DNA from: Labia minor
Lineage: Eukaryota; Arthropoda; Insecta; Dermaptera; Spongiphoridae
NCBI GenBank assembly: GCA_963082975.1
Contig: OY720346.1
Span: 20,330,720 to 20,394,719 of the forward strand
DNA: 64,000 nucleotides
Direction: 5' to 3'
Both the position numbers and the translations under genes were made by a program. Every line of letters begins with the position of its first letter. Position 1 is the first letter of the stretch. The notes beneath the pieces were generated by a model. The model saw only the letters and a list, made by a program, of their open reading frames with translations, made no database searches and had not been told where the DNA came from. This document shows, piece after piece, positions 18,369 through 60,060 of this stretch.

Positions 18369-18409
18369 GAATTGCAAGAAAAGAGGGAATGCGGATGTCA
18401 GATACTGAC
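18369..18409 (-). other. Candidate ratchet site with RS-exon / microexon 3 (41 nt)
   Basis: On the minus strand TTTTTAATTTGTATTGTTTCAG precedes GTCAGTATC, with the exon starting at 18409. A strong donor CAATTC|GTGAGTAG begins at 18368, giving 41 nt. GTCAGT is a usable 5' splice site. It lies 20.0 kb downstream (minus-strand sense) of the 38410 site. Confidence 0.45.
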
Positions 18410-18607
18410 CTGAAACAATACAAATTAAAAAAAAAAGATTAGTATAATAATAAATTGATAATATAGATCTACTATTATTTAATATGATACAAATATAAGA
18501 ATACTATTAAAAACATTAAAATAGTTCAATAATAATATTAATGGATATCATTAAAAAATATTCAAGTAATGTGGCTGCATATCCAAAGGCGTTAATATTT
18601 AAATATT

Positions 18608-19076
18608 AAAAAATACACAATATCAAATATTAGTAAAATAAATTGTTTTTATATTAAATAATTCAATTATTTATATTATATTGAATAAAATATATTATTT
18701 AAAAAATTATTTAAAATATTAATTTATTTTTAATTAAATATATTAATTATCTAACAAAAGAATTAATTTAACAATTTCTGATTTAACAAAATTACAGTTT
18801 CTTTTGTTATTTTTGTATCATTTTTTTAAACAAACATTCTTACTTGAGTTAATTCTGATTGATTTTAAATTTAACAAAAGAAACTGTAATTTTGTTAAAT
18901 CAAGAATTGTTAAATTAATTCTTTTGTTGGATAATTAACATATTTAATTAAAAATAAATTGATATTTTAAATAATTTTTTTAAATAATGTATTTTATTCA
19001 ATTATCATATAAATAATTGAATTATTTAATATAAAAACAATTTATTTTACTAATATTTAACTTATTGTGTATTTTT
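18608..19076. mobile_element. Foldback-type element: two ~203-bp inverted arms, 62-bp loop
   Basis: The left arm (18608-18809) and right arm (18872-19076) are reverse complements with about 95% identity by eye, starting AAAAATACACAATA and ending CAGTTTCTTTTGTTA. The spacer 18810-18871 is unique. No open frame. The size, lack of coding and long arms fit a foldback/MITE-like element; a simple inverted duplication is the alternative, since I could not identify a clear target duplication. Confidence 0.85.
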
Positions 19077-19489
19077 AAAAAAAATAAGATAAATAGTTGC
19101 TAAATAAATAAATCTTGTTATTGTTTTATTTTATAACAAGAAAATATAAATAATTTCAACTTTGGAAAATCATGAAAAAATAATTAATATTTAGTATCTT
19201 CAATAAAGTTAATAATTAATAAAGTTTTTTAAAATAATTATTTATTATCAGAAATTGTGATTTGAATTGAAATTTCGATTATATGTAGTTATGTGCTTTA
19301 TTTTTTAATAGTTTATTTGCCTCCATTCTGTTTTATCATTTAGAAATATCATTTAAAATTCTCCCATCCACAAAACAATATCGTATTAATAATTACATAT
19401 ACGATAAGTCTTAGAGAGGGAGAGGGGATAGGAAGAAAGACTTCGGGAGGCAATTAAAGAAAAAAAAAACAGTCATGTTCACATTTCGT

Positions 19490-20870
19490 GATTTGATACG
19501 ATCGAGACATTAATTCAAAAATTGTAGGTGTGCTAATCGGCTGATGGAGGTCCCCGATTAGGAGGCACCGCCACGCAGGCCTCACGCACCCCAACCCTTT
19601 CTTTTTTTTTTTTTCTTCCTTATATATATTTTTTTTTCTTTACTCAATTATCCATTGTTTTTCGCGACGTCTGCCGTGTTTGTTTGTGTTATTACTTATT
19701 GCCCAGGCGGCGGATCCTATTATTCGGCTGTGGTTTAGGAGAATTGCCGTTAGGCGTCTCGTCCTGCCTACTTTTAGCTTTAATGCTATACATGAGGCAG
19801 CCGCTGGTAATTACATTCTAACCCTTTCATCTCTCTCCCTGCTTTATCTCTGCGCACCCCCTCGGTTCACCCCGCTCCCCCCCTCGACTCACTCATTTAC
19901 CCCCGAGAGCCGGCGCTCGAGTAATTAAACCCCCAACCCTCGCTGCCTCGAACGCCGTCGAGATAATGGCAAGAAAATTATTTGCAACGCTGGAGAAAAG
20001 TCTCGTTCATCACAGACGAGACTGGCCTGCAAGAAACATGAGGGCGCCCCCGGATAGTGAGCTGTTTAATCTGCTAATGCTTGAACAGTGGCGTTTCTAT
20101 ACAAGCTCCTGGTCCGCCGATGACGGATGACGCACCTGTCACGGCACCAGTTTGCCTGTCGATGCCAAACGAGGTCACCAATTCGAAAAAGTGACACTCG
20201 TTTTGTACACCTTCTCTCTACTTTGCCAAAGAAAAATACCCCCCCCTCCCCCCAAAAAAACAAAAAAAAAAAAATACACATTGATGGATGTTTTTCCCCA
20301 CCATCGACATTTTTTCCTTTCCCCCCTCCTCCCGAGGTGTTAAAAATTCACTTGTGCGTAGACATGACATTAACGGTGATTAGGGTGGCACTCGCTAATT
20401 ACCCCATTGGCAATGTGTTAAGCAAAAAGCCACCCGAAGAAGAGAACAAGTCAATAGCGAGTCGACAGACGTCACGGATTGGAAAATGAATGAATCCGTC
20501 GGCGTCTTCATATTCACCGCAATTAGCAATTAGCACCTGTTTGTTCTGACAAACAGCCGGTCTTCGTCGTTTCATAGATGTACATTCATTTATTTTAATT
20601 ACACAATATTAATTATTCTATGCGTTTGTTGAGAAATGTAAATTAAACAGAGAGAGAGAGAGAGGAGAATTGTCCAATCGCGAAAGGATCGAGAAGTGGA
20701 GAAGGGGTGGGGGTGCTTTATTTATTTTCTCTTCAGGCAGGCGTTCGTTAATGAAATGCTAATTTATTTATCAAGCTAACATCATTAACCGACTAACTTT
20801 TTGATCATTAAAATTCATACTATGGAGAAAGAGCGAGGGGTATAAATATATCAACTAACATCTCTAGATA
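19490..20870. promoter_or_regulatory. Largest GC-richer island; candidate enhancer cluster
   Basis: About 1.4 kb with many developmental-factor-like words: CTAATCGGCTGATGG, GGTAATTACATTC, GAGTAATTAAAC, CACCTGTCACGG and GAGGTCACC. Near 20521 a doubled CAATTAG is followed by an inverted forkhead pair (20537-20556). A hairpin AGTCTCGT...ACGAGACT lies at 19999-20023. Poly-C/poly-A tracts at 20238-20275 break it. Open frames are short and inconsistent. Confidence 0.4.
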
Positions 20871-21435
20871 GGAAAAATATTAATTGGAAACATTGATTTA
20901 ATAGATAGGAATATAACCCCATTGCCTAAAAGTTATCATATAAATGAGAGGGAGAAAAAAAAATAGATATTCTCGGATAAAATATTTTGAATGACTGAGC
21001 TTTTAATGAGTTTTTAATATCTTGAAATTTTGTCGGAAAGTATAGTCTTGGTATTCGGAGGCTACCAAGCAACATTATGACTGACTCATGCTTTTAAGAG
21101 TATAATAGACAAATTTCTCTTTTGTTTTTTTTTGTTTTTTTTTGGTTTTTATTATTTAAATGATATTAGACAAATGGTGATGGGTTGTACTTTAAATCAA
21201 AAATTACTGTTTCAATAACATTCAAAGATCATTTCATTCACATGTATACAAAGAATATATAGTTTCGACCATATAATATTTTTTTTTATTAATATATAAT
21301 TTATTTTATTTATATGAATTTATATATAAATATAATTTTCTAAAGATTTTCTTTATTTCTCTTTATAATATTAAAAATTTTAACATTTATTCTTATAATA
21401 ATAAAAATAATATAACAATTTAAAAATAAATAATA

Positions 21436-21970
21436 TAAATATAAAATTTTTTTATAAAATAACGTTTTTCCAATGGACTAAAAATAATAAAATAATTTAT
21501 CTAAAAGCTTGACAAAGTTTATGTGGATGAATTGCTTCGTATTCAACGAAAAACGTTGGGCGCATTTAGTTTAATTTATTAATATGAACAATCAAGTCAA
21601 ATTTTTTTATCATACAATAAAATTGATAGTTTAAGAGCTAAGAAATTAATCTTTTATTATTTTTCACTGTAATATACTTATATCAAAGCATGTATCAAAA
21701 TTTAAAAGAATTTTTATTAAATTTACATATTATCAATCAAATCCAAAATGGTTGATTATATTTGAAGAAATAGTGTTACTTGTTAATTAAGTGTTTTATA
21801 TGAATTATAGCTCCATAAAGGAAGTTAATTGCATAGAACTAAATGCTCCCAACGTTTTTCGTTGAATATGAAGCAATTCTTCCATAAACTTTGTCAAGCT
21901 TATAGAAAAATTATTTTATTCTTTTTAGTTCATTGGAAAAACGTTATTTTATAAAACAATTTTATATTTA
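21436..21970. mobile_element. Non-autonomous element with ~135-bp terminal inverted repeats
   Basis: The arms 21436-21572 and 21837-21970 are inverted copies (about 88-90% by eye). They share AACGTTTTTCCAATG, AGCTTGACAAAGTTTATG and TTCAACGAAAAACGTTGGG. Weaker inverted similarity (TTTATTTCTCTT...) may extend the arms to about 21340 and 22040. The 264-bp interior is AT-rich and non-coding. Most likely a MITE; the superfamily is not recognisable. Confidence 0.8.
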
Positions 21971-23119
21971 GATTATTTTATTCTTTTTTTATTGCAATTT
22001 TATTTAATATAACAAGAGAAATAGAAAAGATGAAGTTATACGAAGATTTACAAATTGAATAAAACAAAAAAAAATATTAAATAACAATTAATTAATTATA
22101 ATTCAATTATATTTCTTCTATACCTTCTAAGAATCCATTGAAATATCTATAAAAATTTTCAAAAGTCTATCTCAATAAAAAGTCGATGAAAAATCGATTT
22201 AAATTTGTCAAAAGAGCGAACAGACAGACAAAGAGACAGACGCCAAGTGAAGTTGAGAAAAACGTTATAAAAATAAAATAGTATTTGAGTAAATATCATA
22301 ACTTATAAAATATAGTAATTTATTTTTAATTTTTGTACTATTAATTTACATATAAGATTGCAATTATTTACTTTTCTTTTGATTTAATAAAAAAATTATA
22401 ATAAAACTTATGCAAATTTTCTTCATTATTTTTGATTTTAATAAATAAATATCAAAAATGAAAAAAGAAAATTAGTAAATTATTTTGCTTTAAAGTGAAA
22501 AGTTCAATTGCATTGAATGCAACTCATTTAAAGGAATAACTTTCTATTACAATATAATACATTGGGTGTTATTCAATATGAAATTATATTATATTTCATT
22601 GTGTTATCCAGTATGAAAATATCTACTTTATGTATGAGAAAGATTGAAAACCATTTTCAAATACTTTATGTTCATTCTTGAAATTCTGAAATGTTGATTT
22701 GAATAAAATTTTGTGAAATGACAACTGACAGGAACGGAAGATATTTATATTTATATTTGCTACATGAAGAAAACTAATCCTAGACGAAAATTTATATCCT
22801 TGAAATAAAAAAATAAATAAATAAATAAATACTTGTCAGGATGCAAGGGTAAATTAGGTATAATATACTTTGTCCGTATGTAAGTAAAAACCCGTCGTAG
22901 GTATTTAATTTCTAGCTAAGACGAAAGGAAACAAATTTCCCAGGGTATTAATACAATAATATTCCTACACCTGACAGTTGAAATTATTTTTCTCCGTGTT
23001 TCATGAAAAGATTTGATTTCTAAGAAATTTCTTTCCGTCCATTTGATGGTTATTTGGAAATCAATTCAATAGCCTTATAACAAATTTCAAACTGTCGTAT
23101 TTGTTTCGTTTTTATGGAT
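21971..23119. other. AT-rich stretch
   Basis: Contains GAACAGACAGACAAAGAGAC (about 22219-22240), a faint microsatellite relic, and (AAAT)n at 22807-22830. No gene. Confidence 0.55.
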
Positions 23120-23640
23120 ATTGTAAAAGTTTAACATTTCAGTTGGTTTATCACCCTCACTGGTTTTGTATGCTACATACACCTACCCGTCCCCCAACCT
23201 TCCAAGCCTTTTAAAGTTCAAAACTAAAATAAAATTATCTAATTTTCTGATTATTACCTAGCCACTGTTTCTTTTTCGTCCTTTCCCTCTCCTCGCTTCC
23301 TCCCCCCCCCTCTACAAGCTTCCCCAAACTTGGTCTTTAACACTAACGACACCCAACTTGAACGAATGCATTTGGGAAATGACCCGCGAGCTATAGACAA
23401 ATTACCTTTTTTTCCCTTCTAAACGAAGATTGTCCAATAGGTTGGGTGTGATGTGATTTTTTTTTTCCTAAAGCCCATTTACTATAATTGGATTTATATG
23501 TATGAATGTATGTAAGTATGCACGCCAGGGCTAACTAATTCAGATCAAGATTAGGATCCTTTATCTATATCTAACCATCAACACGTTTCCCTGCTAGTGT
23601 CTTTTTTTCACTCATTTTTTTTTTAATTAATAAGTAGAGC
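23120..23640. promoter_or_regulatory. Moderately GC-rich island
   Basis: Contains C-rich tracts (CCTCCCCCCCCC), CATTTGGGAAATGACCCGCG and AACCATCAACACG. No gene or repeat family is recognised. Confidence 0.22.
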
Positions 23641-24089
23641 GGGATATAGTGGGGGAAGTTAATATGTTGATATGTATTTTACAGTATAAAGGTGATAATT
23701 TATTTTATTATATTCATGTTTGTTGGAGATCAATAAATAATGTGTATAGGGCTAATAATAAATCGTAAATCAAATAGGCTTAATGCGAATTTATAATGTA
23801 TAAATAAATTCTCATTGGTTCTCCCGTTTGTTTGGATTGCCATTTTCTTTTTTTTTTTTACGTCAGTGGATAAATAAGTAGGCGGAGCGTAAAAATTGAG
23901 ACATGGACCAAATTCTCTCCATCAAGTTAAAATCTAAATAGGTAAACCGAACTGATATGGATATATTTATTAAAAAATAAATACATTATTCAAAATAGCA
24001 TCGTCAATTCTAATCCTATCAACTGAATTATTTGGTATTTTTATTAATATTGAAGTATGATATTTAATAAATAAATAAAAAGTAGTTTA

Positions 24090-24550
24090 CGAGGGTGTAC
24101 TGAAAAGTTTCCGACCTGACCAAGAAAAACGATGTTTTTCAATTTTTTTTTTGCTATATTTTTCAACATAATCTCCATCAACACTGATATATTTCTCATA
24201 ACGTTGTACTAATTAATTTAATTAATTAATTAATTATTTAATTAATTAATTAAATTTAAGTCTCATCAACAGGTATGAATCGACGTGAAAATTCGTTTGG
24301 ATTATGCTTACAGTGCCAAATTGTCGTTAAAAATGTTTTTTCGAAGCAATTTTTGGTCTAACGTTAGGAAATGCGGCACCCACGTTGCACACAGCTTTCC
24401 ATATTCAAATGGTTTTGCAAAATATTTCGCACACGTTCAGCTGACATCGTACAGGTCTCAGCTATCTTGGATTTTGAAAAATAAAACAAAAAAAAAATTG
24501 AAAAACATCGTTTTTCTTGGTAAGGTCGGAAACTTTTCAGACCACCCTCG
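24090..24550 (-). mobile_element. Internally deleted mariner-like element with both TIRs
   Basis: The left end CGAGGGTGTACTGAAAAGTT and the inverted right end CGAGGGTGGTCTGAAAAGTT continue into TTCCGACCT(G/T)ACC and a matching AAGAAAAACGATG run, giving a terminal match of roughly 60 bp. TA dinucleotides (24088-24089 and 24551-24552) flank both ends, as expected for Tc1/mariner insertion. At 461 bp it is about a third of a usual mariner (~1.3 kb). The interior keeps two transposase fragments on the minus strand, separated by an AATTAATT-rich filler at 24211-24260. Confidence 0.92.
24100..24500 (-). pseudogene. Mariner transposase remnant, catalytic core missing
   Basis: Reading the minus strand from about 24495 to 24275 gives a segment like the second helix-turn-helix and linker of mariner transposases (AETCTMSAERVRNIL, then NHLNMES, then LDQKLLRKNIFNDNLAL), broken by stops and frameshifts. 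From about 24212 to 24100 it continues with the family's C-terminal tail (RYEKYISVDGDYVEKYSKK). The first HTH and the whole D,D34D catalytic region are gone, replaced by the AATTAATT filler. It cannot encode a working enzyme. The right-hand TIR also serves as the end of the C-terminal coding remnant, which is normal for mariner. Family assignment rests on recognised sequence patterns, not on a search. Confidence 0.85.
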
Positions 24551-24663
24551 TATATACACACAACACAAGGATTTTAGAATTTAGAGGAAAATGAAAAAAA
24601 AGAAATTGAGAGATTGAAAAGGATAGATAATGAGATTGATTAATTAATTTGATTAATATTTTA

Positions 24664-24699
<36 letters not shown>

Positions 24700-25200: not shown

Positions 25201-25307
25201 TCCTAAGGGGTAGAAAAGAAAAAGGGCTTTACCCTCAATCAAATCTTACACAATTGAATTCATTATCAGTTTGTTTTTTTTTTTGTGAAACATTTCTTAT
25301 ATCTAAG

Positions 25308-25338
<31 letters not shown>

Positions 25339-25764
25339 CTAAAGTAATTATAATTAAATGGAATTCAAGGAAAAAATATTTCCCTGAAGGGAAGATGATG
25401 GTCATTGTGTGGGTGGACGGGAAACATTTTTTGAACCCATTATTATTTTTTTCGACCTAGCACATGTGAGGCATAAAAATTAATATCGCTGAGTCATGAT
25501 GCATGAAATTAGCTACGATTGCTAACAACAAAAGACCAATGTTTGCGTTCTGTTGCATGTTAGAGACGATTCCTGTTCATAATTATATATCGAAATGACC
25601 CACAAAAGAAGGGGGAGTAAAAATTAAAGACGATGATGAATGAATAAATCATAAGTCGAAAAAAATATTCTCTATGGCACTCAATATAAATAAGATGCAC
25701 TCGTGTTCTTTCAATGGGATTCCAAAAAGAGAGCAAAACAGTAAGAAAAATCTTAGGTTTGGCG

Positions 25765-26130
25765 TATAAAAGAGATAAAGCGTGATAACAAAAGGGAATT
25801 CACAACACGCCCGGGCAGGAAGGAATCAAAGGATAAGCGGAAGTCGTCGAGGGGGTGCGCAGCTACGGGCAAGATAAGCGGAGGGTAACGAGGGCCGTTT
25901 CTATGCGTGGCGCCACCCTTTGGCCCTACGAGGGAGGATACCCGCCTTCGGGGACCCCTGGTCTATTGACAGCGAGAAACAGCCATCAGAGAGACAATTG
26001 GGAAAAACGCAGTCCAGAATAAAAAGACGTTCGAAGGTAATTTAAATGTAATTTACAGTTTGATGAAGGGTCAACGTTCGACCGATGGATCGCATAGCCT
26101 CCCACGAGAGGGGGAGAATTACGATTACAT
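25765..26130. promoter_or_regulatory. Island with a GATA-site cluster
   Basis: Four same-strand GATA words lie within about 110 bp: AGAGATAAAG (25771), CGTGATAACA (25781), GGATAAGCGG (25831) and AGATAAGCGG (25872). The last two share GATAAGCGG. GC-rich sequence with GGCGCCACCC and CCGCCTTCGGGG follows. This suggests an enhancer using GATA-type zinc fingers; inferred. Confidence 0.4.
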
Positions 26131-26351
26131 TACATATCTTCCAGGTTTCCAATAACTTAGAATGAATCTTTAGGGAAAAAAACATAACCACTTTTTATCT
26201 AATTTCAATATTAAATTAGTACCAGATATTAAATTATATATTTATTAAAAAAATAGTTATGTTTGTATACATTTGTTATTCAAACTAGAAAAGACTAGAA
26301 ATGATTTCACTGTTCTTCTGAAAAATTCTGAATGTTAGATTTACTGTTTTT

Positions 26352-26942
26352 ACTATCTCGTAAGAGATAGTATTGCGATCACGAAAATTTTCGATGTTGA
26401 GATTTTGATGTTTTTATACGTTTTGAAGGTTCCTGAATCATTTTCACTAAGGTTGAGAAAAATGTCTGTGTGTGTGTGTGTATGTATGTAGACAAGATTA
26501 CGCAAAAACGGTTTGAGCTAGAATGATGAAATTTGGTACATGGACATTATTCAAAATTCATAGTTTTCTATCACCTTTTGAGAAATGTAGCTCAACCGGA
26601 AGAGGGTCATTACCTACAACGTTTTGATTTTTTTTCCTCTAAAGTGACCGTAAAAATAAAAATATATGTTTGATAATTTTGCACATGATTAATAATTGTA
26701 TAAAACTGCTATATATAGAATTTCAGCTTGATTGAATTGCTGAAAGTACCAGAATTAATTTTTTAATACTGCAAATCTCACGCGCCAACACGTGCCATGG
26801 TGCCATCAATAAAAGGCCAAACATGCGCTGGTTTAATATTTATTATTTATAATTTATAATTAATTAAATTTAATTTAAATATAATATATTATGTTATTTA
26901 ATCCAATTCAAATTGCGAGATAGTCGAGTGGAGACACTCCAG
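26352..26942 (+). mobile_element. DINE-1/Helentron-like element, family 2, copy b
   Basis: The second full copy, with the same 5' hairpin (ACTATCTC-GTAA-GAGATAGT), inverted GCGAGATAGT at 26915-26924 and terminal stem-loop at 26926-26939. Its (TG)n run is a little longer than in copy a. Same orientation and length (591 against 596 bp), so both probably moved from full-length sources. Confidence 0.87.
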
Positions 26943-28440: not shown

Positions 28441-29330
28441 GAGAATACAATATAGTAGTATTAAATTTAAATTGAAAATGGAAGTTGAATAGAATAATTG
28501 TTTCTATTCTATTGAAATTTTATTTTTATTTTGTTTTGTTTTCTGTAAAAGAATAACAATATATATTTCGCCAATTGTTGATAATTTAACTCGGATGACT
28601 TTTCTTAAAAATATTTTGTTTTTTTTAAGAATTTTAAATAATTTTAATGATAATTTTAAGGAGAATATAATATAGTAGTATTAAATTTAAATTTTGAAAA
28701 TGGAAGTTGAATAGAATAATTGTTTCTATTCTAATGAAATTTTATTTTTATTTTGTTTTGTTTTCTGTAAAAGAATAACAATATATATTTCGCCAATTGT
28801 TGATAATTTAACTCGGCTGACTTTTCTTAAAAATATATTTGTCTTTTTTTAAGAATTTTAAATAATTTTAATGATAATTTTAAGGAGAATATAATATAGT
28901 AGTATTAAATTTAAATTGAAAATGGAAGTTGAATAGAATAATTGTTTCTATTCTATTGAAATTTTATTTTTATTTTGTTTTGTTTTTTTGTAAAAGAATA
29001 ATAATATATATTTCTCCAATTGTTGATAATTTGACTCGGTTGACTTTTCTTAAAAATATATTTGTCTTTTTTTAAGAATTTTAAATAATTTTAATGATAA
29101 TTTTAAGGAGAATATAATATAGTAGTATTAAATTTAAATTGAAAATGGAAGTTGAATATAATAATTGTTTCTATTCTATTGAAATTTTATTTTTATTTTG
29201 TTTTGTTTTTTTGTAAAAGAATAACAATATATATATCTCCAATTGTTGATAATTTAACTCGGATGACTTTTCTTAAAAATATTTTGTTTTTTTTAAGAAT
29301 TTTAAATAATTTTAATGATAAATTATTAAA
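28441..29330 (+). repeat. Satellite-like array, four ~222-bp monomers
   Basis: Monomers start with GAGAATA(C/T)AATATAGTAG at 28441, 28661, 28885 and 29108, giving unit lengths of 220, 224 and 223 bp. They are highly similar, differing by scattered substitutions and 1-4 bp indels. Each ends with AATTTTAATGATAATTTTAAG. Monomers 1-3 contain the inverted repeat AATAGAA-TAATTGT-TTCTATT; monomer 4 has lost it. Unit lengths are not multiples of three, so the short open frame in the last unit is unlikely to be coding. Confidence 0.93.
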
Positions 29331-35720: not shown

Positions 35721-36402
35721 AAAGAGTATCGTTTCCAGTACATTTTACCAAACGGGAGAGAGAATGAGAGGGAGGGGGGATAAAAAAAAATACAGAACAC
35801 AAAAAAAAGCTGTTTTGAAAACAAAGCAAAAAAATAAATAAATAAATTTCAAACGAATCAGATAAAAAAATAAAATAAAGGTTTAAATTGTATCATAAGA
35901 GAGTGGGGTTCAATTACGGAAAAATTCATTTGATTTCAAATAAAATTGGTGTTTTCTCCGGTACGAGAATAAAAAAAAAACAATCCCAATATAACTGCAA
36001 AAGATGGAGAAGCGGCGATGGAGAATTAACTTTGAAGTTTGAAAATAGAGAATCCACGTTATAAATGATAATAGAGAAAGGTAAATAACATCAATAAATA
36101 CCGAGAGAAGAAGAAAGAGCGGATTGTTTGATTTGGCCAATATATATTTATTTACTATTATACTCTGTATTCTTCTATTACATATTATTGGATATTATTA
36201 AAAAGTATAAACCTGATAGAAAAACAATCATAGACCTGTAAAAAACGAACTAATTCACTTCTTAACAAAAAAAAGTATTATCAAGTATTATTATTATTTT
36301 ATTTGTTTTACTTGAGTTTTTATAAATAATAATAATAAAGTAACATAATATGATAAATAATTTTTAATATAAATAAATATCATTTAAAAACCATTATAGA
36401 AA

Positions 36403-37020
36403 TAAGTTGACCTGTGGCCAGGTCCGAACCGACCGACGGTTTGAAGTAAATTAATTTCCAGCTACAGAAACAATTTCAAATAATTTTAATATATCTATTA
36501 ATGTAATAAAAAACAGATATAGATATAACATAAATATTTTTAATTTTATTTTATTTATAATATATATGTAAGACCAGGCTGTGACGTCATGAATGGCTGG
36601 ATGACGTCATATAATTTTAAATCAAGAAAAAACTAATAAATAGATTTTCTCGAGAATAAAACCACCACAAAGTGCATGATTCGTGTGTGTGGTGATATTT
36701 AAAAAATCTCCTCATGTGAAATTTGGTGTGAAAATAACCCTTCCCTTCCTATCGTCGATCGCTAATACTACCACTTCCGGTTTCCGGATTTGCACCAAAA
36801 GTTGATCAATTCATCCCACTGATGCATTAAGTAAATATACCAAATTTCATCAAAATCGGTTGAGCCGTTCAGGCTGTACACATCTATACGGACGGACAGA
36901 CATCATGCTAAAAATACTTTTTTCTGTTAAGAAAATGCATGATTCGTGGAGATATGTAAAAATCTCCACATGTGAAATTTGGTGTGAAAACAATACCTCC
37001 CTTACTATCGTCGGTCGGTA
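36403..37020 (-). mobile_element. DINE-1/Helentron-like element, family 1, copy B (complete)
   Basis: A reverse-oriented copy of the element at 4219-5263. Hairpin GACCTG-TGGC-CAGGTC lies at 36409-36424, the inverted CCGACCGACGG follows it, and the opposite end is CGTCGGTCGGTA (37009-37020). It keeps two direct-repeat modules (each with GCATGATTCGTG...GTGAAATTTGGTGTGAAAA) and the ACCACTTCCGGTTTCCGG segment missing from copy A. Its microsatellite is short (36890-36902). Confidence 0.88.
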
Positions 37021-38349
37021 ATAACACAAAAATTTAAGTAAAATGTTCAAATCTTGTAATTAAAGAAAAAAAGAATTAAAACATCGATACTATTATAGTA
37101 AATAATAATGACATTTATAAATAATTGTCAACTGTTTATTATGCATTATTTGTTGAAATGTGATACAACTAAAAGAAAAAACAAGATAAAAATAAATAAA
37201 ATAAAAATCGTGGTTATATTAATTTAATTAAAATAATAATAATAATAATAATAAAAAGAGATGATCGCTTTCGTTGCTAAATATTTTGTTTCAATATTTA
37301 AAAAATGATAAATGAATTGTATTCTATTTATTTTATGCATTTCAAATGAATCCAAAAAGGATTAGATGTAAACATACATATACAACAAAAATGCATAAAA
37401 TATTGTATTCACCAAGTGAAATGGATTTATTTATTTATTTTATTATTTTAACAAATAGCAATTGTGCCCTCTAAAGGTATAAATAATTTAATAATAAAAT
37501 GATTCAAATCAATAGATCATGTTTCATATAAAGGGCAAAGTAAACAAAATATCTAACTAAATAAATTTAAAAATTTATGAATAAATATATATATATATAT
37601 AAAATTAAAAATGGTTAATCGATATTTTCATTAAAAATAGAATGGAAATAACTAAATAAATAAAATATTTTAGTTTTTTTTATTTTAGTTAATTAGGATT
37701 GACAGTTTTACTTTTCGTTGTTTTGCCATAAGTAACATTTAAAATGTTTACTTTTCACTACAATTATCAATATTTTTTAGTTTTATAAAAGAAACATCGT
37801 AAATTTTTTTACCTGTATTTTAGGGAAATAATTTAATATTATTTTTTTATATTTAGAATTAATCAATTATTTTTTTATTTTATCGATATGAATAATTATA
37901 TATTTTTCATTTTTGAAAAGATTAAAAAAAAAAACTTTTATCCTTTTTTTAGGAAAAAAAATAAAAAAGTTATTTTAAAGATAAAGAAATTCATTTATTA
38001 GTGGATTAATTTCTTTAAATAAATTCTAAGTTTTATTTATTACAAGAAAAACTATAAAACAAAAATCTACAAATAATTTTTTTTTTATAGGTTCATATTT
38101 TAAAAAAAGCAATAAAATATTTATTTATTCTTTTCGAGACAAAATAAAAATAATTATTATCACATGGAGTATCATTATAAAATTTTAAATTTCAATTAAG
38201 ATTATTTCATATGAACAGATAAATTTTATCCACATCCTATTTTAGTGCACTCATTCTTTATTTGTCGAAAGAATAAAATGCAAATAGATCTGGGGTAGGT
38301 GGGAAGAATAAAACGCCCACAAACGGAAGTACTTGCAATCATCACTTAC
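37021..38349. other. AT-rich stretch before candidate ratchet site 2
   Basis: (AAT)n at 37233-37255, (TA)n at 37585-37602 and poly-T tracts. No gene or known element. Confidence 0.6.
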
Positions 38350-38410
38350 AATATGTTAAAATGTTCTGGAGGGTGACAAACGGATTGCAATCAACAGCAT
38401 GGGTACCAAC
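38350..38410 (-). other. Candidate ratchet site with RS-exon / microexon 2 (61 nt)
   Basis: The minus strand reads TTTTTTATTTCTTTGTTTCAG and then GTTGGTACC; the exon starts at 38410. A strong donor ATATT|GTAAGTGATG begins at 38349, giving 61 nt. The re-created 5' site GTTGGT is weaker than at the first site. One frame is open throughout. It lies 21.4 kb downstream (minus-strand sense) of the first site. Confidence 0.45.
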
Positions 38411-39472
38411 CTGAAACAAAGAAATAAAAAATTCACCATGAGATGGAATATATGGAAATAATAAAAAAAAAATAGGGTGGGTAAGTAATATAATCGCAAA
38501 TTTCATCAAGTGGAACATCGTAAAACGAAGTCCTAAGTGGCTATTAAATTTTTAAATTAGTTTCAAGTTGAATTCTTAAATACTTTTCTTATTATTTAAC
38601 TGTATACTAAAATATCATTTAAGACAATTAAGAATGGAAAATATATATGTATATGCGAAGCGTGATATTGAAATTAGGTGACGTTCTCTTGGGTAATCTT
38701 GTATCATTGGAAATTATGTTAATTAAATTAAATTAAGTTCCAGCTTGAAATTGAAACGATTAAAAAAATAAGCACAATTATACTTTCGTGGATATCAATT
38801 GAAAAGTATTTTATAATTTAACTGGTGAATCTTTCTATGAAAATATCACTGATATATGATTTTAGTAATGAAAGAGATGTGAAAAAACATTGGAATTCAA
38901 AAAATACTTTGTGAAGATCTCAAGTAAAAGTATTATATAAATGAGCAAAATGTAATAAACATTTTATTTACTAGTATATGTTAAATGAGATTTTCCATTT
39001 TGGGTATTATTATATCATTCATAGCATAATATAATAATAATATCTTCAAAAGTTTTTATTTACCTTTCAAAACTTCAAAATGTTTTTTTTTCCTCTAATC
39101 CTTTTATTTTAATCCTATACAAAAATCTTGATTTTATAAGTGTGCAAGTTTTAATTCTAGTTGCCATCAGATAAAGAATAAAGATAAAATTTGAATAAAG
39201 TATAACATTGGTATAATAATCAAAATAAGAAGAAAATTGACAAAAATAGAGCCATCCTAATATCTGACAATTAGTATCAATATTATTATTATTTTTAATA
39301 TTATTATTATTATATTAATTTCTCAAAGAATATTATATTTCTATAATTATTATTAATCATTAATAAAGTAAAATAAAAATAAATAAGATATACACTTAAA
39401 ATTAATATCAATTACACTGTATATTGAATATACACTTATATCCATTCGAATCCATTTATTATATTAAAGATT

Positions 39473-40332: not shown

Positions 40333-40360
40333 ATATTTATTATATAAATTAATATTCATT

Positions 40361-40561: not shown

Positions 40562-42421
40562 ATGGATCGTTGGCTACAAACTGGTTCAACACAGAAACGG
40601 AAAGAATCAGATGATGAGGCATCAACAGCAAACTCTACCAAGAAACGCAAAACTAGAAAATATTCGGATGATTATTTATCATTTGGATTTACTTATATTT
40701 GCAACAATGATGTGGAAAGACCAGTCTGCGTTCTATGTCAGGAAAGTTTATCCAATGAAAGTATGAAACCTGCTAATCTCAGACGTCATTTACAAACAAA
40801 GCACAGCGAGCATGTTAGTAAGTCTATCGAATTTTTTAAAATGAAAAAAGAAGAACTTAATTCAAGTCAGAAATTGATGGTAAAGACGGGATCTGGTGGT
40901 ATGAGTAAGAAAGCAGTAATGGCATCATATGAAGTAGCTCTACTTATTGCTAAAGCAGGAAAGGCGCATAATATAGCAGAGCAATTAATTCTTCCTGCTA
41001 CAAAAGTAATTACAAATATAATGTTAGGAACTAAAGCAGCAAACGATATAAATTTGATTTCATTATCAAATGATACGGTTAAGAATAGGATTGAAGACAT
41101 GTCATGTAATATAAAAGAAGAATTAATATCGAGAGTGCGCAAAAGTCACTATTACTCATTACAATTGGATGAAAGTACTGATGTCACTAATAATGCCAAT
41201 TTGTTAGCTTTCATTAGATATGAGTTTGAAAATCAAATACAAGAAGATGTATTGTTTTGTGATTCACTACCTTCACGAACGACAGCTAATGACATATTTA
41301 ACAGTTTGAATAATTTTATAACCGAAAATGAAATAGAGTGGCCAAAATGTGTTGGAATTTGCACTGATGGTGCTCGTGCAATGTCAGGTACAAGAACTGG
41401 ATTGATTGCTCTTATTAAAAATGTTGCGCCTCAGGTTGTTTGGAATCATTGCTGCATTCACAGAGAATCATTAGCAGCCAAAAATATGTCACCAGATTTG
41501 AAAAGAACATTAGACGAAGTAGTTAAAATTGTCAATTTCATTAAGGCTCGTCCACTTAATTCCAGAGTTTTTAAAATTTTGTGTGAGGAAATGGGTAGTC
41601 AACATACACATTTATTATTACATACAGATGTACGTTGGTTGTCCCGCGGGAAAGTACTCATTCGCCTTTTTGAGCTTCGAGATGAAATACGATTGTTTTT
41701 AATAGATGCGCATTTTGAACTGACCGAATGTTTCAATGATTTTATCTGGTTAGCTAAGGTGGCTTACTTGACTGATATTTTTACAAAATTGAACGAACTT
41801 AATTTGAGCCTGCAAGGTACTGTTGTAAATATATTTAAAGTTGAAGATAAAATAGAAGCAATGATTAAAAAAATCGACTTGTGGTCGAAACGCATCCAGA
41901 ACGGTGTATATGAGTCTTTTCCAACTCTCAATGATTTCATAGAAAGCTCCAGTGAAAAATTGCTTAATCAAACGCGTCAATTATTTGTTGAACATTTAAT
42001 TACTTTGAAAAGCAACTTCAGGAAGTATTTTTCTACTCCTGATCCTTGCAATAACTGGATCAGAGATCCATTTAATATGGAAATTACAAATGCTAAACAT
42101 TTATCTGCACCTGAACAAGATATTCTCGTGGAATTATCATGTGATACAACTTATAAACTAAAATTTAACAAAACTGAATTGAGCAACTTTTGGTTACTTC
42201 TCAGGTCAGATTATCCTGCGCTTGCAAATAAAGCACTTCAACACTTGATTCCATTCTGCACAACATATTTATGCGAACAAGCTTTTTCGGTACTATTTTA
42301 TATTAAGTCTAAATATAGAAACAAATTAAATGTAGAGCCGGATCTTAGATTAAAAGTTTCCAATATTAAGCCAGATATTGAGATTCTTGTTTCAAGAAAA
42401 CAACTGCATACATCTCATTAA
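40562..42421 (+). CDS. hAT transposase with N-terminal BED zinc finger (SCAND3/ZBED/FAM200-like), intact
   Basis: A 619-residue uninterrupted frame. It would cut and paste the surrounding transposon in the nucleus. A basic N-terminus (KKRKTRK, residues 27-33) could serve as nuclear signal. A BED-type zinc finger follows: C56-x2-C59 and H76-x4-H81 in the segment around NESMKPANLRRHL. The RNase H-like core shows QLDES (D203), the CTDGARAMSG block (D269), HCCIHRESL (about 296-304) and HTDVRWLSRGKV (RW at 358-359). Near the C-terminus the hAT dimerisation block has YLCEQAFS, with E572 as the likely third acid, then KSKYRNKLN. Length fits the family (about 600 aa). The start is the first ATG in frame, just after a probable 3' splice site (AG at 40533-40534); MDRWLQTGS resembles the usual opening of these proteins. 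The frame ends TCTCATTAA. No frameshift or stop is present. A domesticated host gene is less likely because TIRs and TSD still flank it. Confidence 0.95.
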   Translation: MDRWLQTGSTQKRKESDDEASTANSTKKRKTRKYSDDYLSFGFTYICNNDVERPVCVLCQESLSNESMKPANLRRHLQTKHSEHVSKSIEFFKMKKEELNSSQKLMVKTGSGGMSKKAVMASYEVALLIAKAGKAHNIAEQLILPATKVITNIMLGTKAANDINLISLSNDTVKNRIEDMSCNIKEELISRVRKSHYYSLQLDESTDVTNNANLLAFIRYEFENQIQEDVLFCDSLPSRTTANDIFNSLNNFITENEIEWPKCVGICTDGARAMSGTRTGLIALIKNVAPQVVWNHCCIHRESLAAKNMSPDLKRTLDEVVKIVNFIKARPLNSRVFKILCEEMGSQHTHLLLHTDVRWLSRGKVLIRLFELRDEIRLFLIDAHFELTECFNDFIWLAKVAYLTDIFTKLNELNLSLQGTVVNIFKVEDKIEAMIKKIDLWSKRIQNGVYESFPTLNDFIESSSEKLLNQTRQLFVEHLITLKSNFRKYFSTPDPCNNWIRDPFNMEITNAKHLSAPEQDILVELSCDTTYKLKFNKTELSNFWLLLRSDYPALANKALQHLIPFCTTYLCEQAFSVLFYIKSKYRNKLNVEPDLRLKVSNIKPDIEILVSRKQLHTSH

Positions 42422-43879: not shown

Positions 43880-45120
43880 TTATATTTATTAGGCTCGAGC
43901 ATTCATAAGGTCTCCGAACAACTCTACATCTCTTTCACAATCTCATTCGGAATACGCGAATAGAGGCAACGTAAGAAGGAGCCATTTAGACATAAGAGTA
44001 GGGGAAGTTAAGGATTGTATATTCTCTATATAGTATATATATATATATACTTTTAACTTTTACAATTTTACTTGTTAGATGCTTGTGAAATTATAGTAGA
44101 GAATTAAAACATTGTTAATAAAAAAAAAAATATTAATTTAATTAGTATGGGTTCAATAAATATGTAGGACGATCAAGGAGATATTAATTTGTAAGAGTCG
44201 ATTGCGTCTTGGGGAATAATTGACCGTCGAAGAAGAAGAACCGGGATCGATAGCACCAGCGATGAGCGCTTGGCTGACTCCCGGTTAAGGAAAAAAAGAG
44301 AGAAGAGAGTGAAAGAGAAAAAAGAGCGTCATGGGGTTGGTTGGGGGACCCAAGTGAGATTGTCACAGCTCATAGTCGCCGATTCGCACGTCCAAATTCC
44401 GGGGGCGGATCCTCCTCTTGCTCTTCTTCCTTTTGTCGTCTGAGTTTTCTTCGCAGCAGTGCAAAAATTGTAAAATTTATGTGCCGGCTTGTGGATTATC
44501 CTGGAGCGGGGTCGTTATGGGCCCCCGGGGACTCTAGAAGCCATTACGCGCGCCAAGAAATCTCGCCCCGGGGTCTTCAACCCATCTCTCACACTCCAAC
44601 CCCCCCACGCCTTTGCTCAACCTCCCTCTGTTAGAACTACGGCGAGTCTCTTTCACATTTGATAATTAACAGAAAGAAAATGGGAATTTCCGATTCATGT
44701 TTGTAGGTTCCAGACCAAATGATTGAGAGAGTGAAAAAAATCAAAAAAAAAAAAAAAGAAAAAAGAAAAAGCTTTGTGGTGTATGTGTATAAGACAAATG
44801 GCTCAAGTATAGAGGGCGAGAAACGAAACAAGGGCGCAAGGTGGTTGAAACGGAAAAGAAATATTGAGTGGAGAAAAAGGAGGGGGGAAGCGAGTAGGAA
44901 ATGAAGTAGCGCGCGAAAGGCTAATGCTAAGTAATGCTGAAAGCACGTATTACCTATGCAACTGAGCCAGATCCATAAAAATGGATAATACTCTGCATAT
45001 ACCGGTCGGCTTAACTCGTTCCTATACAAAATATAAAATATTTCGGTCATGGATTAAGGCTTAAAAAAAACAAGCTTGATCGGCGAAGCCCGGATTGAAA
45101 AGGGTCGTTCGTTAGAGAAG
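43880..45120. promoter_or_regulatory. GC-richer islands with purine and pyrimidine tracts
   Basis: Islands at about 43890-44000, 44190-44640 and 44920-45120 hold TTGCGTCTTGGGG, CCGGGATCGATAGC, ATTACGCGCGCCAAG, CTAATGCTAAGTAATGCTG and CATATACCGGTCGGC. (GAAAAA)n tracts lie between them. Open frames there are low-complexity. Confidence 0.28.
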
Positions 45121-53280: not shown

Positions 53281-53781
53281 GTGACAAGTATAAAAGGGGT
53301 GGATCTGTGGTGAAATAAATAACACCTGATTCTCTACTCTTTATTATTAATAAGAAAATTATATTAGCTTCAATGATAATGTATTACTTGTAATTTAACA
53401 GATGTCTGAGTGATAGTTTGAAAATTATTATTCTTTTTTTTTTTATTTTTATTTCATCTTTCCATAACGTTGATTTTATTTAAAAATCACCGAGCGTTAA
53501 AATAATTTAGAAAAAATAAAAAAAAATGAAAAACAAACAAAATTAAAATATTTTGTTTTATAATAATCTCATTAAAAACAAGAAGAAAAATATTATACAT
53601 ATATAGGATACCTTATAAAAATTATAATTTACATTTTTATTTTACAATTGAATATAATGTTATTAAAAATTTTTAATTTCATTTATTGTAGGAATACAAC
53701 ATAAAATATCTTATAAGTATGTAAATGAGGACCATAAAAAACTTATATACCAATTATATAAATAAATAAATAAACAAAAAA

Positions 53782-54435
53782 TAAGTTGACCTGTGGCCAG
53801 GTCCGAACCGACCGACTGTTTGAAATAAATTAATTTCCAGCTACAGAAACAATTCCAAATAATTTTAATATATCTATTAATGTAATAAAAACAGATATGG
53901 ATACATAAATAATAAATATAAACATTTTTAATTTTATTTTATTTATAATATATATGCAAGACCAGGCTGTGACGTCATGAATGGCTGGATGACGTCATAT
54001 AATTTTAAATCAAGAAAAAACTAATAAATATGATTTTTCTCGAGGATAAAACCAATACAAAGTGCATGATTCGTGGTGATATATAAAAAAATCTCCTTTG
54101 GTGTGAAAATAACCCTTTCCTTCCTATCGTCGATCGCTAATACTACCACTTCCGGTTTCCGGAATTGCACCAAAAGTTGATCAATTCATCCCACTGATGC
54201 ATTAAGTAAATATACCAAATTTCATCAAAATCGGTTGAGCCGTTCAGGCTGTACACATCTATACGGACGGACGGACGGACGGACAGACGGACGGACAGAC
54301 GGACGGACGGACAGACATCATGCTAAAAATACTTTTTTCTGTTTAGAAAATGCATGATTCGTGGAGATATGTAAAAATCTCCACATGTGAAATTTGGTGT
54401 GAAAACAATACCTCCCTTACTATCGTCGGTCGGTA
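53782..54435 (-). mobile_element. DINE-1/Helentron-like element, family 1, copy C (complete)
   Basis: Reverse-oriented and very close to copy B along its length. Hairpin at 53788-53803; far end CGTCGGTCGGTA at 54424-54435. The ACGG/ACAG microsatellite has expanded to about 55 bp (54263-54317). A small deletion removes part of the first direct-repeat module near 54090. Confidence 0.88.
54263..54317 (-). repeat. ACGG/ACAG microsatellite in family-1 copy C
   Basis: Thirteen or so GGAC units with GACA interruptions, the expanded counterpart of the arrays in copies A and B. Confidence 0.95.
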
Positions 54436-54989
54436 AAAAACACTAAAAAAGAGGGTTACCATTATCATTTCTTAAATTCTTAAAACAACAAATTAATTAA
54501 TTTATTATTTATAAATCTTAACTACATTCTGTTTTATAATAAAAAATAATTATTTAAAGATATTTATATAAAATATTCCCATTATAAAAAAAAATGTTAT
54601 GAATAACCTTGTGACTATTTTTAGTATAGATTAGGACTATATGTGATTGATACATAAAATTGTTAATAAGGCTTATATTTATTTATATACTTTCATATAT
54701 AATTTTAGATTTTCGATTATACTTAATAAAACATTGAAAATAAATCCAGATTTATTTAATTTTTAATGCAACACATGAGAGTATATATATAATATATAAT
54801 TAATAAATTTTATATTAAAAATAAAAACTCAATTTTCTTTTATTTATAAAATATATTTATATAGCTTTATGCATATATATTTTTTCAAAATAAAAATAAT
54901 AATAATATATATACATATTATTTGAATATGAGAAAATTTTTCGTAGATATTTTTATCCACAAATGTTTGTTTTTTATTTTTATATATTT
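54436..54989. other. AT-rich stretch downstream of family-1 copy C
   Basis: TA- and AAT-rich; nothing else seen. Confidence 0.6.
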
Positions 54990-55290
54990 ATTTATTTTTT
55001 GAATTCAACATACCCCTAAGATGAAGTTTATTTATATGTCTATGTGCGGGTTTGTGTGGTGTGGTCGACCGGTGCTCGGGGATACAAACCCCAACCCTTG
55101 GACCTTCCCCCGGGTGTTCAAGATGGATGCGAGAAGATATGGACCTAGAGAGAGTGAGAGAGAGAGAAAGAGAAGAGATCCCTGGGGAGCTCTCCCAAGT
55201 CGAACTCATCTTGTTTGGGTTTCCTAGTCCCCACCTTACCCACTCCCTTCACTCAACCCACAACCCGTCCCCTGGATATATATTCATATC
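54990..55290. promoter_or_regulatory. GC-richer island with (GA)n tract
   Basis: GTGTGGTGTGGTCGACCGG, CCTTGGACCTTCCCCCGG and an AGAGAGTGAGAGAGAGAG run (about 55148-55168). Overlapping frames on both strands, none recognisable. Confidence 0.22.
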
Positions 55291-55482
55291 CACTACAGTA
55301 CGGTTGATAAATTTCAAATCTCCCCTAGTACAAGTATTTATTTATTTTTCATATTGTTGTGAATAAAACAAAAAAATAAACTTGTTTATTGTCATTCTAT
55401 TAAATTAAAATATTTAGGGCTCAATTAAATAAAAATAAATAATATCCAGAAAAATTTTATGAAAATGTATTAATAAAAAATT

Positions 55483-55545
55483 TAGATCGTAGCTCGGTGG
55501 TAAAATGATGAATTTCAAAACTTGACGTCGAGTGTTCAAACCTTA
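55483..55545 (+). repeat. tRNA-like head (possible SINE)
   Basis: TAGCTCGGTGGTAAAATG (from 55490) resembles an A box and GTTCAAACC (55534-55542) a B box, 44 bp apart. The stems do not fold as a good tRNA, so it is not a functional gene. The AT-rich sequence that follows may be a SINE body but has no second copy here. Confidence 0.4.
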
Positions 55546-56219
55546 ACAAGTTCACCAAAATTATAATTTAATATTTAATAGTTAATGTGATAAATTCTCA
55601 AATAAATTTATAATATGGTTCATGGGCTTAGATTCTGAGAGTCAATAAAAAATGTATATAATAAATAATAATTTGAATGAAATTGAAATTTATTATTAAA
55701 AGTTAATGGTGGCCTAACAATCTAGCCGGATTATAGTTGTTCAAGGGTGGTTGATTGATATAGTCAAGTAGTATAGATTGAGTTTAAAATTTAATACATT
55801 ATTATTATTATTAATAATAATAATAAAGTAAATACCAAATAATTTCAAAGAATATATTAAATAATTTGAAATAATTAATAAAATATATAAACAAATAAAA
55901 AATAATCAATTTTTGATTGTGAGATGATAAAAGAAAAATATAAAATGATATTTATGCTATATTTAGCAAATTTTTTAATATTATAGTACAATTCGTTTTA
56001 ATAAAATATTTTAAAATTGTTTTTTTTTTCTATTTAGTCAAGAATACAATCTTTATTTCATTTTATAATGTTTTGGTTCTTTCTGCCAGATGCATTGAAT
56101 AAATGCTTGAATTAATAGAAGAATATCGTGTCCATTTCATCTCTTTTTTCATTATTCTCCTGGTATTTATTTTGAATATTTTTTTTTTTTGTGCGTGAGT
56201 TAATTTGAAAAGAGTTCTC
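55546..56219. other. AT-rich stretch
   Basis: Possibly begins with a SINE body after the tRNA-like head (GAGAGTCAATAAAAAATG at about 55637). (ATT)/(AAT) runs form a short palindrome at 55800-55826. No gene. Confidence 0.55.
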
Positions 56220-56890
56220 TTTCTCTCTCTCCTAGTGGTAGTGGGCAGAAGAAGAGTTGCAAGTGGGGGTGGTCTAAAAGCGAATCGACGTTGCTTTTGA
56301 TAGCCGTTGCGGTTGCGTTGTCAAGTTGTATTGGTTTAGAGTTTCTATCGGTTTATCGGGCATCCTTTCTTTGACATAACTCTTATACTAAATAGCCTCT
56401 GTCCGAGTATGTGTGTGCGCCTGACGGGGTGGTGGGTGTCTGCAAAAATGCACCCCATTGATTAGGGCTGAGGCCCCGCACAAAGCCCCCGTCCCAACCT
56501 CCATTAAACCTATTCCACTCGGCCAATAAATAAGTTTTCAACTCGGTACGCCAAAAGCTACTTGGTTTATTATCCATTAGCTTAATAGGAACGGTTCTTT
56601 ATACAGACGACGAGGAGAGGGGGGAGGGGTGGGCCAACTTCTATTGTGCCCCTATGATATTAATTAGCTTGTAAAAGATTGGAAAACTCTCTATTTTTAG
56701 AGATATAACGCATTATGGAAATCCGGACAAGCCATAAAAAAAAATCTACGACGGGGAGCAGCTAATGCCCGATCCAAGGATCCGACCGCCCGGCGAGATT
56801 TATTGCAAATCGACATACAATGGCAGAAATATCGCGGAAAAAATTGATTGCAATTATAATTAAGGGGAGGGAATCGATTTTAATGAGATC
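56220..56890. promoter_or_regulatory. Long GC-richer island; candidate enhancer
   Basis: Contains GTTGCTTTTGATAGC, CCATTGATTAGGGC, GATATTAATTAGC, TTATTATCCATTAGCTTAATAGG, AGCCATAAAA, GGATCCGACCGCCCGG and TTGCAATTATAATTAAG. Homeodomain-like TAAT words are frequent. No coding support. Confidence 0.38.
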
Positions 56891-57869
56891 AAGATAGAAA
56901 AAATAAACAACCGAAACGAAATAAAAAACAAACACAAAAAAAAAAAAAAAAAAAAATAATAAATAAAGAAGAAGAAGGAATTTATAATACAAAATATATA
57001 AAGAAGCAATTCTATAAACAAACAAAAAGACAAGAAATAAAATACGTCAACGTTTTGAGAAAACAAACAATAATTTCTATATAAAAATAAACTTTATCAT
57101 CAACCACAACGATATACTTAGCATTGTTTCATATCTTTTCTTCTTTTTAAATAAAAAAAAGAACGAATAAGTTCGAATGTTTAATTTTTAGATTTATTAC
57201 ATATTTTTCAGATAAAATTTTTCAAAAAAATACAATTTTATTCTACTTTTACAAGATTTTTATAAAAATTTATAAAAATCTAAATATATAGTATTAATAC
57301 TCGAATAAAAGGTCATAGACATTGGAATATTCCCAATTCAATAACAATGGTTGCATAAAGTAAAGGGGCAAAGGATAGATACAAAGATAAGTAAATAAAT
57401 ATTTTCAAAATCTTAAATAAATTCTTGCAAGATTTTCTTTCTTTCTTTATATATTTTATATTATGAACTCTTAAAATAATATTTCTCTCTTGTTTTGTTA
57501 CAAAGTAACATTAGTGCTTTTTAAAAAATAAAATAAATAAAAGTTTTACGCTTAAAAATTAAAAAAAAAAAGAAATATATAATGTATATATGTACATATA
57601 TAATAAAAGATAATCGTTTCGACCTTTTCTCTTTCTGTTGATCAGATATTTTTGGAATTTAATTTAGTAAGAAAATCCTTTTATTTTTATTAACCATGAA
57701 ATCATGCATAAAATGATTTTGATGAACTTATTTTATTCTCTTTTAACGAGTAGTAAAAATTTAATTATAGTGTTTAAAAAAAAAAAATAGCTGTCTCTCT
57801 TTCTCTCCTTATTCTGTGTCTCCCTTCCTCTTTTTTCCTCAACTCTTCTCCAAACTAAAATCATTCTGT

Positions 57870-58340
57870 AAACCAGCTGGTGGTCGTATAGTTAATGTTT
57901 CAAGTCTTTTATTGAGAGGAATGATTTTCAGAAGGCGCAGCTACAATGTCGTTGCAGTGATTTAATTGTTTTTTTTTCTTAAAGTATATAAATCATTGTT
58001 TTTTTTTATATATTTGTCAATTTCCATGTAATGTTCGTGATGTGTAGGCATCGTGGTTTGAACAGACTATTAAAAAGTTACCAGTGGAGCTTAAATCAAG
58101 AGGCGAAACGTAAATTGCAACGTATCGGGTTCTCCAAGGCTCCCAGCTCATTACCCAAGCTGACATTTAGCATATAGCGGGGAGGGGGTCGTCCGGGGGC
58201 TGATCGGAGCAGCAACAGGTCGGCCGTACGTGAAAAACCCCAAGTGTTGTCATTTTGATATTAATAGAGAGATGGATTGATAGGTTAAACAGCTGAGGGG
58301 GGATGATGGCGAGGAAAGATAGACGAAGGCCGAAATGATG
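57870..58340. promoter_or_regulatory. GC-richer island
   Basis: Contains ACCAGCTGGTGG (palindromic E-box CAGCTG), GAGCTTAAATCAAGAGG, CAACAGGTCGGCC and AAACAGCTGAGG. A tRNA-like reading of the start was considered but lacks a B box. Confidence 0.28.
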
Positions 58341-59639
58341 ATAAATCATCGATGGGAAAAAAATATACCGGAAAAAAAGAAAAAAAAAAAACGACTCAAA
58401 TTAGTCGGAAATGAGATAATGAAATTTGAGTTGTGATGATAAAAATATATATATATACATTCACACATAAAAATTGATATTATAAATCTATAATACATGG
58501 ACGCTTCTATTTAAATGAAATGATTGATAAATATTGACGATGAACAAAAATTGGGAGAGGGTGAAAATTGAAAAAAAAAAAAAAATATTCAAATGATATT
58601 TTCTCAATTAACTTAAAGTAATGAAGATCGGTCAAATAAATTGAGTCATGTTAAGTATACCACCTTAATAATAATATTTATTATTTTAATCTATAATGGT
58701 TATAAATGCCTTGGAAATCATAACTTTAATAAAGTCACATATTTCTCCTTCTCTCTCGAAAATATCTTAAAGTTTATATAGGTACTAATCCCTTTAAGGG
58801 CTTGGCATTTAGGAAACTCTGATCTATGAACCTTGAACGAGTTACTGGAAGGGCTGGCTAGCCCTTTCAATCCTTGATTCACCATTGTTCATTCAAGAGT
58901 AAATTGGAAACGCTCTCATGATACTAGATTACTTCAAAATTAATTATTTAATGAATTGAAATTGGAGATAATAAATTATTTTTTTTTTTTAAAAAAAAAG
59001 AAAAAATCTATTCTTTTTTTTATTATAAATTCCAATTCAAATAATTTATTACACTTGATTTAATAAAAAAAATCCAATAATTTGAATACCTTATCAAATT
59101 TCAATAAAAACTTAAGAAACAAAAACAAAAATATAAATAAAAATTAAATAATTAATAATAAAATTAAATTGTATTTAAATATATTTGCACAGAAGAGAAT
59201 TTCAAACTTTTAACTAAAATAGTTGAATTATTGTAAGCTTAGTTAATTTAAAAATTTCAACCTGATATTTGAAATTAATTAAAAATTACTATAATTATTA
59301 CTAACACATCGATTATAATTGATTCGTAAGTTTATATTTATATTATAATATTCGACAAATACAATTTACAACTATAAATTAAATATTTTGATATATGTAT
59401 TGTATTGTATTTATTTTTATATTTTATTTTGTTATTTTATTTTTAATGAATAAAAAAATTTCAGAGTGCGATGGTTAATTCATTCATTGAAAAAATGCAC
59501 GAGGATTAAAAACATGTCGCAACCAATGATAATAAATGGCACAACTGATTACACCCTTGCTCGGGCATAAATCAGTTTATATATATATATATTGTAAAAA
59601 TAATATCGCTTTTTTGATATTGGCGAACAACGATTAAAA
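58341..59639. other. AT-rich stretch with one hairpin
   Basis: AAGGGCT-GGCT-AGCCCTT at 58849-58866 is a perfect 7-bp stem, near CCCTTTAAGGG at about 58790. The remainder is AT-rich. Confidence 0.55.
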
Positions 59640-60060
59640 TGCGGTTAACTAATTAGCCTAATAAAACTGTTGTTTCCAAAATGATGGATCTAAAAATGCT
59701 AATAGGTGGAGGCCCCGGAGGGCATGTCAGCTAAATGACACAGGGGACGCACCACTTACCGAACGGATAAACGAACGAGCAGAAAGTGATGGACATATTC
59801 CAGCGACACTCACCTGGAACAACACAAAAAAAAGCAAAGTCAAGTGTGAGTCGGAATGCACTCGCGGGATCAGTCCTGTCAGGGGATCAACTGCACTCGG
59901 CGGATTGGATTTGCTGACCGGGCATGACTGGACAGACCACCGACGGATTACAGATAAGAGATAAAAGATAGAAGATAAGATGAGTTCCAACCTTCGGCGT
60001 TGGTTTCTTTCCACCATCCAATTATCCATCCACCCCAGGATTAGACTGAATCTACTTCCA
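59640..60060. promoter_or_regulatory. GC-richer island around candidate ratchet site 1
   Basis: Surrounds the splice-like signals at 59760-59815. Contains GCGGTTAACTAATTAGCC, CTGCACTCGGCGGATTGG and an AGATAAGAGATAAAAGATAG GATA-like run at about 59950. Confidence 0.35.
59760..59813 (-). other. Candidate ratchet site with RS-exon / microexon 1 (54 nt)
   Basis: On the minus strand a tract TTTGCTTTTTTTTGTGTTGT leads to CCAG, with the AG at 59815-59814, directly followed by GTGAGTG. This is a textbook juxtaposed 3'/5' splice site. A second strong donor, TTCG|GTAAGTGG, begins at 59759 and defines a 54-nt exon (59813-59760). Two frames are open through it; I recognise no protein. The combination is what recursive-splicing sites in long introns look like. 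An ordinary 54-nt exon is the alternative. Confidence 0.45.

Follow-up and report, generated by a model that had tools for sequence, protein, structure and literature searches.

Recursive splicing of long introns is well established in flies, and recursive splicing with RS-exons was reportedly described for vertebrates by Sibley in 2015. The Drosophila ratchet points with cryptic RS-exons described by Joseph et al. 2021 (PMC8605326), in Ubx, kuz, Bx and chinmo, join a strong acceptor to an AG|GT juxtaposition, and their RS-exons of about 50 nt (51-56 nt in Ubx and chinmo) are closed by a downstream donor. According to the same account, several roughly evenly placed sites can divide one long intron, as with the two in the ~50-kb kuz intron, and at intronic ratchet points of insects and mammals the recursive donor exceeds the RS-exon donor in strength; vertebrate RS-exon recursive splicing, as summarised there, likewise involves an exon-defined RS-exon and competition between donors. 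The fly sites mapped from nascent RNA are reported by Pai et al. 2018 (PMC6110457) to have a strong 3' splice site and to be enriched for strong downstream 5' splice sites, and their non-random placement cuts introns into chunks that average 9.1 kb and typically measure 9-15 kb. In the literature searched, direct insect evidence comes from flies, and bee, mosquito and beetle are represented by motif enrichment alone. This enrichment was computed in 2009 for large introns of bee, mosquito, beetle and sea urchin (PMC2773006); in the figures given there, non-fly insects have a sense-strand excess in introns longer than 50 kb (0.484 sites per 100 kb sense vs 0.122 antisense in the bee), and vertebrate introns show little enrichment.

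In this study, we report three candidate sites of this kind on the minus strand of a 64,000-nt stretch of DNA (the window), at positions 59813, 38410 and 18409, named RP1, RP2 and RP3. The first-pass annotation had described a pyrimidine tract plus CAG directly abutting GT at each of them, with donors 54, 61 and 41 nt further on. Re-reading of the sequence found its coordinates and letters to be correct: juxtaposed 3'/5' splice sites, (Y)nNCAG|GT, with GTNNGT as the recursive donor, are present at all three, as is a cryptic short RS-exon followed by a downstream GTRAGT donor.

RP1 reads CAG|GTGAGT. Its 3' splice site (59814-59847, acceptor score 12.1) consists of a branch-point-like CTCAC (A at 59847), a T-rich tract and CAG, and is AG-free for 47 nt upstream; GTGAGT opens a 54-nt RS-exon (59760-59813, GC 0.48), which is followed, 54 nt further on, by TCG|GTAAGTGG with the donor GTAAGT at 59754-59759. 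RP2 reads CAG|GTTGGT, and its 3' splice site (38411-38439, acceptor score 11.7, AG-free for 79 nt upstream) is built in the same way around a branch-point-like CTCAT (A at 38439); the 61-nt RS-exon (38350-38410, GC 0.41) begins with GTTGGT and is closed by ATT|GTAAGTGA, the donor GTAAGT occupying 38344-38349. RP3 reads CAG|GTCAGT, with a branch-point-like CTAAT (A at 18439), a T-rich tract and CAG at 18410-18439 (acceptor score 8.5, AG-free for 59 nt upstream), a 41-nt RS-exon that begins with GTCAGT (18369-18409, GC 0.44), and TTC|GTGAGTAG with the donor GTGAGT at 18363-18368. The CTNAY branch-point-like motif thus lies at -34, -29 and -30, respectively. A full GTRAGT serves as recursive donor at RP1 only; those of RP2 (GTTGGT) and RP3 (GTCAGT) are off the published consensus GTAAGT. 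The GC content of the RS-exon exceeds that of its flanks at all three sites, an excess that is not significant site by site (0.23, 0.12 and 0.05 of random windows).

The AG|GT juxtaposition and strong acceptors are those of the fly ratchet points described in PMC8605326, and the RS-exons of 41-61 nt, likewise closed by a downstream donor, are similar in length to the ones given there for Ubx and chinmo. The layout of several sites in a row is also similar, whereas two of the three recursive donors are off-consensus here, the segments are of ~20 kb, and usage is predicted from sequence. Strong 3' splice sites, strong downstream 5' splice sites and division into chunks agree equally with the nascent-RNA map as reported in PMC6110457, and the segments of 20.0 and 21.4 kb, for which the intron ends are not seen, are longer than the fly segments. 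The sites counted in PMC2773006 are motifs at an 80% score, in an account that mentions no downstream donor; the three found here in 64 kb were scored differently, so the densities are not comparable. By its composition, the window (GC 28%, CpG o/e 1.09) appears insect-like rather than vertebrate-like, being AT-rich without CpG depletion.

We consider it likely that RP1-RP3 are true ratchet points (recursive splice sites) within a single long intron on the minus strand, with RS-exons that are first exon-defined. The same reading was put forward in the first-pass annotation and is supported at the level of sequence, its basis being the juxtaposed sites, the RS-exon donors, the branch-point-like motif, the exclusion of AG, the single strand and the absence of a Pfam match at E <= 0.01 in its three frames. 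From these features we infer transcription, a single host intron, the order of the steps and RS-exon exclusion, and a putative minus-strand host intron of more than 41 kb is favoured. In the proposed mechanism, each site would first be recognised as a 41-61-nt exon, bounded by a strong 3' splice site and by the downstream GTRAGT. Joining of the upstream exon to the CAG would rebuild a donor from the exon end and the GTNNGT of the RS-exon; this rebuilt donor would outcompete the RS-exon's own donor, so that the RS-exon would be discarded, removed together with the next ~20-kb segment. The steps would run from the upstream exon to RP1, RP2 and RP3, and then to the next site or exon.

Donor strength was approximated by U1 pairing (kcal/mol), with several assumed upstream exon ends. 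With CAG, the rebuilt donor was stronger than the RS-exon donor at RP1 (-11.7 vs -8.8 kcal/mol), RP2 (-7.5 vs -4.9) and RP3 (-7.5 vs -5.3), and the same order was obtained at all three sites with AAG or GAG. With the weak ends ATG or TCT, the rebuilt donor was the weaker one at all three sites, the two donors of RP1 being near-equal with ATG (-8.7 rebuilt vs -8.8 RS-exon).

The intervals between the sites, earlier given as 21.4 and 20.0 kb, were measured as 21,403 and 20,001 nt. They are near-equal, as the description "evenly spaced" implies; however, there are two of them, and because two random intervals are this even with a probability of about 0.034, even spacing counts as weak support. 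The proposed removal in ~20-kb steps is drawn from these two intervals.

RP1-RP3 might instead be short exons that are expressed (in a 5'-UTR or lncRNA, or as regulated/poison exons) and chance to begin with GT, with their downstream donors used. We regard this as unlikely. Each site does have all the parts of an exon, with a GTRAGT donor 41-61 nt beyond a strong acceptor and a relatively GC-rich body between them; the length of RS-exon 1 (54 nt) is divisible by three, and two of its frames are open; and on the intron side the downstream GTAAGT of RP2 and GTGAGT of RP3 are nearer to consensus than GTTGGT and GTCAGT. Ordinary exons, however, would be expected to begin with GTNNGT only seldom, and all three of these do, a strong acceptor followed by GTNNGT being found at 3 of 54 such acceptors on the minus strand and at none of 46 on the plus strand. 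Moreover, the lengths of 54, 61 and 41 nt fall in three different phases (0, 1 and 2, respectively), each RS-exon has stops in at least one frame, and the minus strand gave no Pfam match.

The pairing of acceptors with downstream donors was also counted across the window. A GTRAGT lies 30-105 nt downstream of 3 of the 54 strong minus-strand acceptors, and these are exactly RP1-RP3, all starting with GTNNGT; the single case among the 46 plus-strand acceptors starts with GAGGAG and is not recursive. When the acceptor threshold was relaxed to 5, GTRAGT-paired acceptors numbered 9 of 316 on the minus strand (three recursive) and 5 of 298 on the plus strand (none recursive). Exon-like pairs occurred at 0.67 per strand in 300 shuffled strands, 11 of which had at least three. 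The minus strand has 11 copies of GTRAGT in all and the plus strand 19, and four of the 11 are inside the three modules. It is the downstream donor that decides between RP1-RP3 and the other acceptors.

A further, and decidedly doubtful, version of the recursive reading is that this is a recursive intron of a non-fly insect in which RP1 alone has a consensus recursive donor while RP2 and RP3 depend on the upstream exon end. The first exon or isoform feeding into them would then determine whether the RS-exons are skipped or are retained as poison exons that break the frame. The off-consensus donors of RP2 and RP3 may leave room for such a regulated include-or-skip role.

That the three sites are chance motifs of AT-rich, poly-T-rich DNA, selected by eye, is highly improbable, and the evidence differs according to whether the downstream donor is included. 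Every AGGT on both strands (n = 224) was scored as acceptor plus donor, using generic weight matrices that are not from this species. RP1-RP3 took ranks 1-3 (21.9, 15.1 and 14.0; next 12.2). With a frequency score the three were still first, RP2 barely so (0.815 vs 0.814 for plus-strand position 15627). With a normalised-bit score RP1 remained at the top (0.834), plus-strand 15627 (0.777) was level with RP3 (0.776), and both 15627 and plus-strand 51567 (0.760) exceeded RP2 (0.750). The margin is therefore narrowed or lost under other scores, as chance would allow. T-tract AGs are plentiful in AT-rich sequence, and with the downstream donor ignored, at least three sites scoring as high as these occurred in 7 of 400 order-3 Markov strands (0.0175) and in 7 of 150 local 300-nt dinucleotide shuffles. 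In the complemented window three juxtaposed sites reached or exceeded the threshold (18.1, 15.9 and 14.6), the best two of them above RP2 and RP3, and in the reversed window two did so. The juxtaposed motif without a downstream donor is less striking, and this part of the evidence is the weaker one.

With the downstream donor included in the score, the three sites again head the 224 (31.7, 21.0 and 19.5; next 17.5, on the plus strand). Sites scoring this high and followed by a downstream donor averaged 0.16 per order-3 Markov strand and 0.23 per local 300-nt dinucleotide shuffle, and three were reached in 0 of 400 and 0 of 150, respectively; neither the reversed nor the complemented window had a juxtaposed site at threshold with a downstream donor. 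Modules, defined as an acceptor of at least 8.4, an immediate GTNNGT and a GTRAGT 30-105 nt further on, numbered three on the real minus strand, none on the real plus strand and none in total on 300 locally shuffled strands (150 per source strand). Both the score thresholds and the three-part module criterion were chosen after the sites had been seen, which favours chance, but these counts and the shared strand of all three sites stand against it. The three-site observation is confirmed as genuine.

The least credible alternative takes 59813 alone as the ordinary donor (CAG|GTGAGT) of an upstream 114-nt exon, 59927-59814, and the other two sites as unrelated. Among the exon-like pairs listed for the minus strand this one scores highest (22.9), and it lies inside a GC-rich patch (59701-60050). 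Against it, the exon would end in a T-rich tract, a branch-like CTCAC and 47 AG-free nt, as is characteristic of a 3' splice site; a search with the 117-aa open frame over RP1 found no relative at E <= 0.001; and the second GTAAGT 54 nt on would stay unexplained.

Searches for genes were made on both strands. With stops written as X, the three minus-strand frames gave no Pfam match at E <= 0.01, in a search insensitive to short exons; as a sensitivity control, the domain of a hAT transposase in the same read-through format reached only E 0.0089. On the plus strand, the Pfam searches covered two stretches (one frame each) and five open frames, of which 24279-24581 weakly matched an uncharacterised domain, below Pfam's cut-off. 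Searches for tRNAs and against Rfam (gathering threshold) found nothing, and an exact-match scan of the three site cores against IMG/VR viral contigs gave 0 hits, a result that is uninformative on insects. The modules of RP1-RP3 overlap no dispersed or tandem repeats among those listed (25 of 41 inverted pairs).

The window also contains several other elements. A hAT-type transposase of 619 aa, uninterrupted, is encoded at 40562-42418 on the plus strand, and its named relatives are zinc finger BED domain-containing protein 5-like. Among the 120 matches listed of 1209, identity is at most 58% to those spanning the protein and 63% to one covering 72% of it, and the named matches are from fish, a frog, a shrimp and insects; its Pfam matches are below Pfam's cut-offs. 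A tandem array at 28441-29321 has about four copies of a 223-nt unit (96% matches). One dispersed element is present in three copies, at 4205-5267 (minus), 36377-37034 (plus) and 53756-54447 (plus), the listed pieces of which are 88-99% alike, and two of these copies contain a (GTCC/ACGG)n microsatellite. A two-copy dispersed repeat (6984-7555 and 26347-26914) has pieces 95-97% alike and a last piece at 74%. A search with a fragment of a dispersed repeat gave two matches, neither of which carries an organism name. A long MITE-like palindrome (18608-19075) could fold in nascent RNA; on the minus strand its near end is ~199 nt upstream of RP3. Finally, 20 GC-rich patches, 200-550 nt long and peaking at 48-59% GC against the 28% background (for example 10001-10300, 19701-20250, 25751-26100 and 44201-44700), are possibly conserved regulatory elements.

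Given the enrichment computed in 2009 for non-fly insects (PMC2773006) and the well-established recursive splicing of flies, RP1-RP3 are a well-formed further candidate of an established phenomenon. The three-part signature of a strong acceptor, GTNNGT, and GTRAGT 40-60 nt on is suggested as a means of recognising sites of this type in unannotated DNA, together with the strand that is transcribed. If the isoform-dependent version were true, recursive splicing would double as a switch over ~20-kb segments. If RP1-RP3 are confirmed as recursive splice sites, they would be a clear multi-site case, probably from outside Drosophila, of recursive splicing by exon definition.
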